Assembly (NCBI GenBank): GCA_947631155.1
Contig: CANRKG010000001.1
Span: forward strand, 38,783-102,782
Reading direction: 5' to 3'
Origin: an uncultured Bacilli bacterium
Lineage (GTDB): Bacteria > Bacillota_I > Bacilli_A > RF39 > UBA660
Length of the DNA stretch: 64,000 bases
Shown: positions 60,019 through 63,899 of the stretch, piece by piece
Numbering within the stretch: position 1 is the first letter of the stretch
How the letters are laid out: each line of letters starts with the position of its first letter
Translations under genes and position numbers: made by a program
The notes under the pieces: model-generated
Database searches by the model: none
The model's input: the letters and a program-made list of their open reading frames with translations, nothing else
Told to the model about the DNA's origin: nothing

Positions 60019-60750
60019 ATGATTAATTTCATAATAGGTGAAGATGAAAAGATTATCAGAAAGGAAACTAAAAATGTAATAATTAGTCTTATGATGAATT
60101 ATGATATTGATTATAAGATTTATGAGTTTGATAGTTATAATGATGATTTTGAATTATTAGTAAAATCAGACAATGGTTTTAAGATATATCTATTAGACAT
60201 AAAGACTAAAAATAGTTCAGGTATTGATGCAGCTAGGATGATTAGAGAAAAATATGACGATTGGAATTCTGTAATTATATTAATAACTTCATATTTGGAG
60301 TATAAATATGAAGCGTTATGTAGTCGCTTATTTTTATTAGATTATATAAATAAATTGGATAATTGTAATAAAAAATTAAAAGAAGATTTGGTTATTGCGA
60401 TGAAACATTATGATAAAAAGTATAACACCTTGGATTATGAATATAATCATACTTATTATAAAATTGAATATAGACAAATTATTTATATTGAAAAAGAACC
60501 TGAAAGCAAAAGATGTTTAATTAAAACCAATGAAGGAACACAAGTTATACCAGGAACTTTAAATGACGTTTATAAGAAATTAGATGATAGGTTTCTAAAA
60601 GTTCATAAAAGTATGATAGTTAATATAAATCAAATAAGAAGATACGAAATAAGAAATAATAAGATAACTTTTAAAAATGGTGATTATACCCATCTAATAT
60701 CAAGGAATATGAAAAAGGAGTTGATAAAACGTGTCAGCGATTGTAGTTAA
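60019..60750 (+). CDS. AgrA-like LytTR-family response regulator
   Basis: Receiver (LLDIKTKNSSGIDAARMI) plus LytTR domain (YKIEYRQIIYIEKEPESKRCLIKT...FLKVHKSMIVNINQI); ATG 60019 with GGTGATAT upstream. Confidence 0.9.
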   Translation: MINFIIGEDEKIIRKETKNVIISLMMNYDIDYKIYEFDSYNDDFELLVKSDNGFKIYLLDIKTKNSSGIDAARMIREKYDDWNSVIILITSYLEYKYEALCSRLFLLDYINKLDNCNKKLKEDLVIAMKHYDKKYNTLDYEYNHTYYKIEYRQIIYIEKEPESKRCLIKTNEGTQVIPGTLNDVYKKLDDRFLKVHKSMIVNINQIRRYEIRNNKITFKNGDYTHLISRNMKKELIKRVSDCS

Positions 60751-62044
60751 TTTTATTTCATCAGCTGTTTTATCTATATCGGGCTTATTTATTGTAAAGG
60801 GAATGAATAATTGTAAAAATAACATTTTTTCAATTAGAACTATAATATTAATGGGATGTTTAATAATATTGCCAATGATAATACATGATATTCAATATAC
60901 ATATTTGTACAGTATTATAGTTTATTTAATAACTATTTTAACATATAAGTATGCACTAAATATTAGTTTTCCTAAAACAATTATTTCTAGTGCAATGTTA
61001 ATGTTATTTGTATCATTATTGGATTCTGTTATAAGTGGTATTGTAGTTTATTTTTTGAGTTTTGAAGAAGCAAGAGAAAATATATTTATTTGTTTATCAT
61101 CTAGCATAATAATTTCTGCGGTTCTGCTTATAATATTTCAATTGAAAAATATAAGAAACAAGTTTTGCAAATTTATTTTAGAAATAGAAAATAAAAGGTT
61201 AACTCATTTTATAATTTTTTTTGTGCTAATAATAATAGGAATCTGTATTTTATTTTATATAATAAGTAACAATTTTCAGCTAAATACAATTTTTACAACT
61301 AGTTTTTTAATATTAATTATATTTTATATGCTAGTTATAATATTAATTGCAGAGAAAAATAATTATGATAAACTATCAGACGAATATGATGGATTACTAG
61401 ATTATGTAAAAGTTTTTGAAGATTGGATTGAAACAGAACAATTAAACAGACATGAATACAAAAATCAATTAGCTGTATTAAGATGTATGACTAAAGAAAA
61501 GAAAGTAAAAGAAAAAATAGATAGTATTATTAATAATAATATAAATATTGATAGTGCAATTATTTCGCAGTTAAAATATTTACCTAAAGGTGGTTTTAAA
61601 GGATTGCTATATTATAAGATAGTGGTAGCACGAAACCAAAAAGTTAATATAGATGTTGATGTTAGTATTGATGTAAATAAAAAATTGAATAAACTAGATA
61701 AAGATAAATTGGATATTATTTCTAAATTGTTGGGTATATATTGTGATAATGCAATAGAAGCGGCCAAAGAAACTAGAAAAAAGATAGTATTAATAGAAAT
61801 TTATGAATATAATGACGTAATTCATATAGTGATCAGCAATACATATAATAAGAAAAAGGACATAAGTAAAAGAAACGAGAAAGGTGTATCAACTAAAGGT
61901 GAGGGTAGAGGTAATGGATTATATTTTGCTGCTAAACTAATAAATAAAAATAAATGGATTGAAGAAAAGCAAGATATAGTAGATAATTTTTATATTCAAA
62001 AGATATCTATATTAAATGAAACGAAAAGACTAAATAACAAATAA
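60731..62044 (+). CDS. AgrC-like GHKL sensor histidine kinase
   Basis: N-terminal multi-TM; RHEYKNQLAVLR H-box; YCDNAIEAAKE; GEGRGNGLYFA; overlaps agrA. Confidence 0.9.
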   Translation: MSAIVVNFISSAVLSISGLFIVKGMNNCKNNIFSIRTIILMGCLIILPMIIHDIQYTYLYSIIVYLITILTYKYALNISFPKTIISSAMLMLFVSLLDSVISGIVVYFLSFEEARENIFICLSSSIIISAVLLIIFQLKNIRNKFCKFILEIENKRLTHFIIFFVLIIIGICILFYIISNNFQLNTIFTTSFLILIIFYMLVIILIAEKNNYDKLSDEYDGLLDYVKVFEDWIETEQLNRHEYKNQLAVLRCMTKEKKVKEKIDSIINNNINIDSAIISQLKYLPKGGFKGLLYYKIVVARNQKVNIDVDVSIDVNKKLNKLDKDKLDIISKLLGIYCDNAIEAAKETRKKIVLIEIYEYNDVIHIVISNTYNKKKDISKRNEKGVSTKGEGRGNGLYFAAKLINKNKWIEEKQDIVDNFYIQKISILNETKRLNNK

Positions 62045-62100
62045 AAAACACTAAATATAGTAAATAATATGAGGTGATTACTATAAATAGTGTTTTTTAT
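62041..62100. terminator. Large bidirectional terminator between convergent agrC and agrD
   Basis: ATAAAAAACACTA (62041-62053) / TAGTGTTTTTTAT (62088-62100), inner ATAGTAA / TTACTAT. Confidence 0.85.
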
Positions 62101-62222
62101 TAATCTTTAAACGTTGCTTTTGTTTTTGGTTCATCCATTAAAAACCAAAAGCAACCCATACTAGCAGCACCACTAGCTAATAAAGCTATAGCACTAATAA
62201 AAGCAGCAAGTCTTTTTTTCAA
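62100..62222 (-). CDS. agrD: AgrD-like autoinducing peptide precursor (40 aa, TTG start), not in ORF track
   Basis: MKKRLAAFISAIALLASGAASMGCFWFLMDEPKTKATFKD; GAGAGGGTG RBS; 48 nt downstream of agrB. Confidence 0.9.
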   Translation of the reverse strand: MKKRLAAFISAIALLASGAASMGCFWFLMDEPKTKATFKD

Positions 62223-62270
62223 AATTGTCACCCTCTCTATTCTTGAATTTATGAAAAAGTGTAAAACCAC

Positions 62271-62864
62271 TTAATCAACAGATTTATAATTGTTATAAGG
62301 TTGATTTAAAACTTTATATGTTAAAGGATTAACAAAAATACTTTCGATTATAATTGCTAAAAATAACAATGTACTTAGTGTATTATTATTAATTAATAGG
62401 GCAATTAATAAGTAAACAATTGATAAAAAAGTTGTCATAATTTTTCTAAATAATTTCTTTTTTGTTTTTGGAAATGGTCTTTTTTCAGTGTCTGCAGGTG
62501 CAAACAAGAATAGTATTATTGTACAAATTATCCCTATAGATAAAAACCACAGTTTACTTATTTGAATATTTAAGAAAGCAAGTGGAAAAATAACAAAACA
62601 AATAGTAGAGAAAATTAAACATTCACTACTTTTTTTAGCGTGAACTCCAAATCCAAAAAATCTTAAAAAATTAAATAAAAGTAAAAGTAATATTACTTCT
62701 TTACAAATACCTAAAATAATACTTAAAATTAAAATTACAATTACTTTTGAAATAGTTAAATAAAGGCCTTCTAAACCATATTGTAATTTATTAAGGTCTT
62801 CTTCAGAATAATTGTTGTATTTTGAAATAAATTCTAATGATAAATTTAATATTGCCTTCTTCAA
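62271..62864 (-). CDS. agrB: AgrB-like accessory gene regulator peptidase
   Basis: FGFGVHAKKSSEC catalytic His/Cys spacing, LFAPADTEKRPFPK; TTG start with TAGGAGGT RBS. Confidence 0.94.
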   Translation of the reverse strand: MKKAILNLSLEFISKYNNYSEEDLNKLQYGLEGLYLTISKVIVILILSIILGICKEVILLLLLFNFLRFFGFGVHAKKSSECLIFSTICFVIFPLAFLNIQISKLWFLSIGIICTIILFLFAPADTEKRPFPKTKKKLFRKIMTTFLSIVYLLIALLINNNTLSTLLFLAIIIESIFVNPLTYKVLNQPYNNYKSVD

Positions 62865-62945: not shown

Positions 62946-63011
62946 ATTATAAATATTTTGTCGGAATTTGTATAATTTTTAACATTTAAATCCTTTAAGA
63001 TAACATTTAAA
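62946..63011 (-). promoter_or_regulatory. Candidate AgrA-activated promoter of agrBD with direct repeats
   Basis: TATAAT -10 on minus strand (62946-62951), weak -35, TAACATTTAAA repeated at 62980-62990 and 63001-63011. Confidence 0.55.
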
Positions 63012-63106: not shown

Positions 63107-63325
63107 ATGATTGGAAGAGTTAAATGGTTCAATAATGAAAAAGGGTATGGATTTATTGAATACAAAGAGGACGAAGATATTTTTGTTCATTATTCTGCAA
63201 TTGAATCTGATGGTTATAAAACTTTGTCAGAAGGTCAATATGTAGAATTTACTCTAGTAGAAACTAGCAAAGGCTATCAAGCTTTAAATGTCAAGTTAGT
63301 AAAAGAACCTGCAGTTACAAAATAA
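63107..63325 (+). CDS. csp: Cold-shock domain protein
   Basis: [32 protein letters not shown]. Confidence 0.96.
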
Positions 63326-63340
63326 GTGGTTCTTTTTATT
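63301..63340 (+). terminator. Terminator overlapping csp 3' end
   Basis: AAAAGAACC...GGTTCTTTT. Confidence 0.65.
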
Positions 63341-63374
63341 TTACTATGTTATAATAATAATAGGAGGTGATATT

Positions 63375-63899
63375 ATGGAAATAGTTATTAGAGGAGACAA
63401 AATAAAAATAACAGAATCAATGCGAAACTATATTGAAACCAAAATAAAGAAACTAGATAAATATCTAGAAAATAGTGATAGTATTCGTGCTAATGTTGTT
63501 TGTAAAGTTAAAAATCATAATCAAATTATAGAGATAACTATCCCATTAAAATCATTTATTTTAAGATCAGAAGAATCTCAAGAAGATTTTTACGCAGCTG
63601 TTGATAAAGCATTAGATAAGTTAGAAAGGCAAATAAGAAAAAACAAGACGAGACTTATGGCAAAAAATGTCAAGACTTATGATTTTTCATTTTCCGAAAT
63701 AGAAGATTATGACGATAATGAAGAAAAAGTTATAAAAAGAAAAAAAATAGAAGTAAAACCTATGGATGAAGAAGAAGCAATAATTCAAATGGAACTTCTA
63801 AATCATCAATTCTATATGTATAAAGATAGTAATACAGATTCATATTCTGTTGTATATAAAAGAAAAGATGGAGGATATGGAATAATAGAGTCTGAATAA
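63375..63899 (+). CDS. hpf: Ribosome hibernation promoting factor (long form)
   Basis: MEIVIRGDKIKITESMRNYIETKIKKLDKYL and C-terminal IIQMELLNHQFYMYKDSNTDSYSVVYKRKDGGYGIIE. Confidence 0.93.
   Translation: MEIVIRGDKIKITESMRNYIETKIKKLDKYLENSDSIRANVVCKVKNHNQIIEITIPLKSFILRSEESQEDFYAAVDKALDKLERQIRKNKTRLMAKNVKTYDFSFSEIEDYDDNEEKVIKRKKIEVKPMDEEEAIIQMELLNHQFYMYKDSNTDSYSVVYKRKDGGYGIIESE

Follow-up and report, generated by a model that had tools for sequence, protein, structure and literature searches.

The agr system is a model for peptide signaling, and nearly all knowledge of it comes from a few pathogens. In Listeria monocytogenes, the ring of the signal (CFMFV) is aromatic and hydrophobic, and the precursor continues with YEP after it. 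In Staphylococcus aureus, the site at which AgrB cuts AgrD lies between M32 and D33, residues D33 and E34 of AgrD are essential for this cleavage, and R70, G75, H77, and C84 are the catalytic residues of AgrB (PMC10196373). Five-residue rings are the commonest among autoinducing peptides (AIPs) (PMC12312760, PMC4916163), with that of Listeria among them (PMC4916163), and six-residue rings have been reported for Clostridium acetobutylicum (PMC12312760, PMC10301443, PMC4916163), whose AIP is [CVLVTL] and whose agrBD and agrCA genes form separate units (PMC12312760, PMC10301443). Signals closed by Ser are known from Enterococcus faecalis Fsr (GBAP) and from the AIP of Staphylococcus pseudintermedius (PMC12312760).

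Here, agr appears as a syntenic locus in one family of small-genome uncultured Bacilli, and it was analyzed in a 64,000-nucleotide stretch of DNA from one of them, which as a whole is called the window below. Like S. aureus agrBDCA and its AgrD (TIGR04223, PF05931), the locus combines an AgrB with R, G, H, and C residues at equal spacing, an AgrD with a Cys nucleophile and Asp-Glu right after the ring, and AgrC and AgrA partners. It differs from S. aureus in that its ring is predicted to have six residues rather than five, its agrAC genes are convergent to agrBD rather than part of one operon, and csp-hpf occupy the place that divergent RNAIII has in that species. With C. acetobutylicum it shares separate agrBD and agrCA units and, by prediction, the ring size, in another organism group and with another ring sequence. 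Its ring begins C-F-x-F as in L. monocytogenes, but has six predicted residues instead of five, and MDEP stands where the Listeria precursor has YEP.

Results

An overlooked agrD gene downstream of agrB

As listed in Table 1, the window contains a short open reading frame starting 48 nt downstream of the end of agrB (62271), on the same strand. The earlier note had described a 40-residue, TTG-start frame missed by the annotation track and placed directly after agrB; it is present letter for letter, and its translation is exactly LKKRLAAFISAIALLASGAASMGCFWFLMDEPKTKATFKD followed by the stop codon. The open frame reaches upstream to a GTG at 62270 (56 aa), and this longer product was ruled out because relatives begin with ATG/MKKR at the position of the TTG. 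The sequence and the alignment show a hydrophobic/amphipathic leader, then Cys, a short core, and an acidic tail, the last of which deviates from the PKSLIK tail that is commoner in the host family. When the stretch downstream of agrB was shuffled on a dinucleotide basis, a frame with C-x5-[DE]E[PAES] arose in 2 of 20,000 shuffles. Judged by its sequence, the overlooked 40-codon frame is an agrD gene, encoding the predicted precursor of a cyclic quorum-sensing signal.

Table 1. Positions of the agr genes and associated features in the window
Feature	Position	Strand	Evidence
agrA, LytTR response regulator	60019..60750	+	LytTR, 60.2 bits
agrC, sensor histidine kinase, convergent to agrBD	60731..62044	+	GHKL domain, 34.2 bits
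Inverted repeat TAAAAAACACTA...TAGTGTTTTTTA between convergent agrC and agrD	62042..62099		seen in sequence
agrD, 40 codons, TTG start	62100..62222	-	sequence and profile of relatives
Asp30-Glu31, predicted AgrB recognition/cleavage side	62130..62135	-	[DE]E in 142/142; S. aureus D33/E34
Predicted six-residue macrocycle C24-F-W-F-L-M29	62136..62153	-	fixed Cys-x5-[DE]E spacing, 117/142 relatives; cut inferred from S. aureus M32/D33
Ribosome-binding site GAGGGTGA, 5 nt before TTG	62228..62235	-	sequence
agrB, 197 aa, membrane peptidase/cyclase	62271..62864	-	Pfam AgrB, 113.2 bits (cut-off 23)
Promoter-like TATACA-17-TATAAT beside the tandem repeat	62946..62974	-	scan; 13 such sites versus 9.2 expected
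Tandem repeat TAACATTTAAA-N10-TAACATTTAAA, 21-bp period, between agrB and csp	62980..63011		perfect repeat

An AgrD profile search, proposed in the earlier note, gave a divided answer. The window peptide scored 14.1 bits with TIGR04223, below the cut-off of 19, and had no match in the Pfam search, while the same TIGR04223 model matched 17 of 20 aligned relatives (best E value, 1.7e-9). We read the low score as a sensitivity limit of this 38-position model, not as an absent feature. A profile built from the relatives matched the window AgrD with an E value of 1.1e-17, the window peptide being itself a row of that profile; across the wider class it found nothing convincing outside the host family, with two weak matches at an E value of 0.006.

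Conservation of AgrD across the host family

Of the 295 host-family genomes sampled, 193 (about two-thirds) have AgrB; the window gene is the sole AgrB gene of its genome, and a congeneric genome, G007 (~96% complete), lacks AgrB. From the host family 134 agrB loci were collected, 4 of which reach a contig end within 121 nt. A small AgrD-type frame lies just downstream of agrB, on the same strand, at each of the 130 loci with enough DNA, and over these loci the agrB strand carried 116 occurrences of the strict motif C-x5-[DE]E[PAES], the opposite strand none. Adding 12 peptides from selected genera gave 142 AgrD peptides (140 distinct), with a common build of Cys (or Ser/Thr)-x5-[Asp/Glu]-Glu, followed mostly by Pro. 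Among the checks on its claim, the earlier note had named conservation of the Cys/DEPK region in relatives. Cys-x5-[DE]E is present in 117 of the 142 peptides, and [DE]E in all 142, an invariance that is partly by construction since [DE]E[PAEST] served as the search anchor. This anchor failed at no locus with enough DNA. Counted from it, position -6 is Cys in 117 peptides, Thr in 12, and Ser in 8, and the remaining 5 have Cys at -7.

Between position -6 and the anchor, each of the five residues is hydrophobic in 91 to 97% of relatives (94 to 97% for the last two ring positions, 0% for the D/E positions), and therefore the FWFLM of the window is typical. The ring had been singled out as unusually hydrophobic, a claim that finds no support: all five residues after the nucleophile are hydrophobic in 107 of the 142 relatives, which makes this the norm in the host family, and the CFMFV ring of Listeria is just as hydrophobic. 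Ring sequences differ among relatives, with over a hundred different rings, a variation that would be expected of species-specific signals.

AgrB residues and the predicted ring

Residues R68, G73, H75, and C82 of the window AgrB correspond, at equal spacing, to the catalytic R70, G75, H77, and C84 of S. aureus, and they are conserved in 133, 134, 134, and 134 of 134 relatives, respectively. Since S. aureus AgrB cuts before Asp-Glu and the same pair follows CFWFLM, the cut is expected before D30, leaving six residues. The choice between five and six ring residues, previously left open, thus tips toward six, and by this analogy the favored product would be a six-residue thiolactone [CFWFLM] rather than a Listeria-like [CFWFL].

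Spacing is different in a few relatives. The five Cys-x6-DEP AgrDs (L048, L104, L133, L134, and L138) form one AgrB clade (support, 98), whose sequences predict a seven-residue ring if the cut again falls before DE. In L027 and L028, two AgrDs that belong to a different family of the same class, the motif is Cys-x4-Tyr-Glu-Pro, a five-residue spacing.

Gene order around agrBD

An AgrC-type kinase and a LytTR AgrA adjoin agrBD in the window, convergent rather than codirectional. Against the NCBIfam models, agrC matched AgrC (NF046015) with an E value of 1.2e-16 and agrA matched AgrA (NF046049) with an E value of 1.1e-13, both under the staphylococcal equivalog cut-offs of these models. Genes for a cold-shock protein (csp) and a hibernation factor (hpf), named from their sequences, lie upstream of agrB and are divergent from it. 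Within the genus of the window genome, the genes follow the order wecA-agrA-agrC> <agrD-agrB csp-hpf>, and the core agrA-agrC> <agrB csp, usually with hpf, is kept across the host family wherever contigs reach. The genome of the window also has one gene for a CPBP-family protease, a candidate leader peptidase.

The inverted repeat between agrC and agrD is a candidate bidirectional terminator by its sequence; a terminator scan did not report it. The tandem repeat between agrB and csp, which resembles the S. aureus AgrA box, is a candidate AgrA (LytTR) box. It scored 22 of 22, shuffles of upstream regions reaching at most 19, and several close relatives have it in the corresponding location. In a family-wide search with one consensus, the distribution of matches equaled that of shuffles except in a few close relatives. 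Its only 0-mismatch match in the window and in the genome, including the regulon search, is the agrB/csp site, and three-mismatch matches in the genome are as frequent as with a reversed-pattern control, so no regulon is claimed. The promoter-like sequence beside it is a weak candidate for the agrBD promoter.

Serine and threonine in place of the ring cysteine

With the five-member Cys-x6 clade left aside, 20 AgrDs lack Cys at position -6. In every one of them the residue there is Ser or Thr, and none has either residue at position -5. The 12 Thr loci (L118, L128, L106, L165, L058, L166, L169, L170, L172, L175, L180, and L181) include one near-duplicate pair; the 8 Ser loci are L114, L139, L157, L159, L171, L173, L176, and L178. 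Four of the 20 (L058, L181, L176, and L178) are ambiguous, as a Cys lies directly beside the Ser/Thr position, and eight Thr loci from four genera (L106, L128, L165, L169, L170, L172, L175, and L180) have no ring Cys at all. In the AgrB tree the 20 cases fall into six separate groups (three with support of 99 to 100, one with 95, and two single loci), and two genera, g140 and g108, contain Ser as well as Thr loci. At the Thr and Ser loci, AgrB retains its catalytic His and Cys, agrA and csp-hpf are in place, and agrC is detectable in most.

Read most simply, these sequences point to a ring that Ser or Thr closes through an ester. E. faecalis Fsr and the S. pseudintermedius AIP, with their oxygen-linked rings, are precedents for the Ser-type relatives, but for Ser only, and Thr is also predicted here. 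No Thr-closed ring is listed in PMC12312760, and no report of a Thr-closed AIP was found in the searchable literature, which leaves out most subscription journals.

Discussion

Taken together, agrD, agrB, and the convergent agrA-agrC make up a complete agr circuit, and we consider it probable (about 0.8) that the frame is the agrD of such a circuit and gives rise to a six-residue thiolactone [CFWFLM]. Synteny, conservation, and the AgrB catalytic residues all lend good support to its identity as AgrD, put forward in the earlier note, as do the 17 of 20 relatives matching the AgrD model; the convergent agrA-agrC went unmentioned there, and the Ser/Thr variants of relatives were out of its view. 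By analogy with S. aureus, Cys82 of AgrB would cut between Met29 and Asp30 and keep the peptide as a thioester, which Cys24 would attack, closing the ring. Trimming of the leader would follow, perhaps close to Ser21 with a short tail (for instance, MG) remaining, and the signal would be exported and bound by AgrC. AgrA might raise agrBD transcription through the tandem box upstream of agrB. Such auto-activation is plausible, and control of csp-hpf from the other side of the box is only a possibility.

The AgrD assignment could be right and the ring still have five residues, CFWFL, if AgrB cut before Met29 as in Listeria. This would give the commonest ring size (PMC12312760, PMC4916163), and other sampled Bacilli do have Cys-x4-YEP (L027 and L028). 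However, the cut would fall one residue ahead of the acidic pair, unlike in S. aureus, 117 of the 142 relatives share the same spacing to [DE]E, and the Listeria-type Cys-x4-YEP, when counted back from the Glu-Pro step, itself corresponds to a six-residue ring here; we thus regard the smaller ring as unlikely.

Further from the six-residue signal stand two readings in which the product is no signal at all. Highly hydrophobic cyclic peptides can be membrane active, and an AgrB-processed peptide might be a secreted cyclic antimicrobial or other effector. This is highly improbable given that agrC and agrA homologues adjoin agrB in the window, as they do in almost every relative whose flanking DNA is long enough, and that the rings vary as expected for species-specific signals. 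A hydrophobic N-terminal leader followed by Cys would also suit a short lipoprotein or an unrelated membrane microprotein with a lipidated Cys, but 88% of relatives have Ser or Thr three residues before Cys (position -9), so that there is no lipobox, the ring is followed by a conserved [DE]E, Cys is replaced by Ser or Thr, and linkage to agrB is strict. A lipoprotein was rejected for its missing lipobox and the Ser/Thr variants, and this whole reading is the least credible of those weighed.

Because six-residue rings have already been reported, the window gene alone is not the new part; that would lie in the Cys/Ser/Thr swaps and the ring sizes of its relatives, which are predictions from sequence. 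On balance, we favor the view that several lineages make six-residue ester rings closed by Thr or Ser with an ordinary AgrB, after repeated swaps that occurred even within one genus, and that another lineage makes seven-residue rings. These natural swaps, with the AgrB catalytic residues unchanged, could serve as a probe of what decides AgrB's choice of nucleophile and ring size, and they also let one ask whether ester signals serve where thioesters are unstable.

Both in the window (63107-63899) and in relatives, csp and hpf share the intergenic region with the candidate AgrA box, and quorum control of ribosome hibernation through hpf is conceivable. Locus L030 is a second, different agrB within one genome (G017), and its AgrD has the form TTCVFMSILHQPKMP (Cys-x6-HQP).
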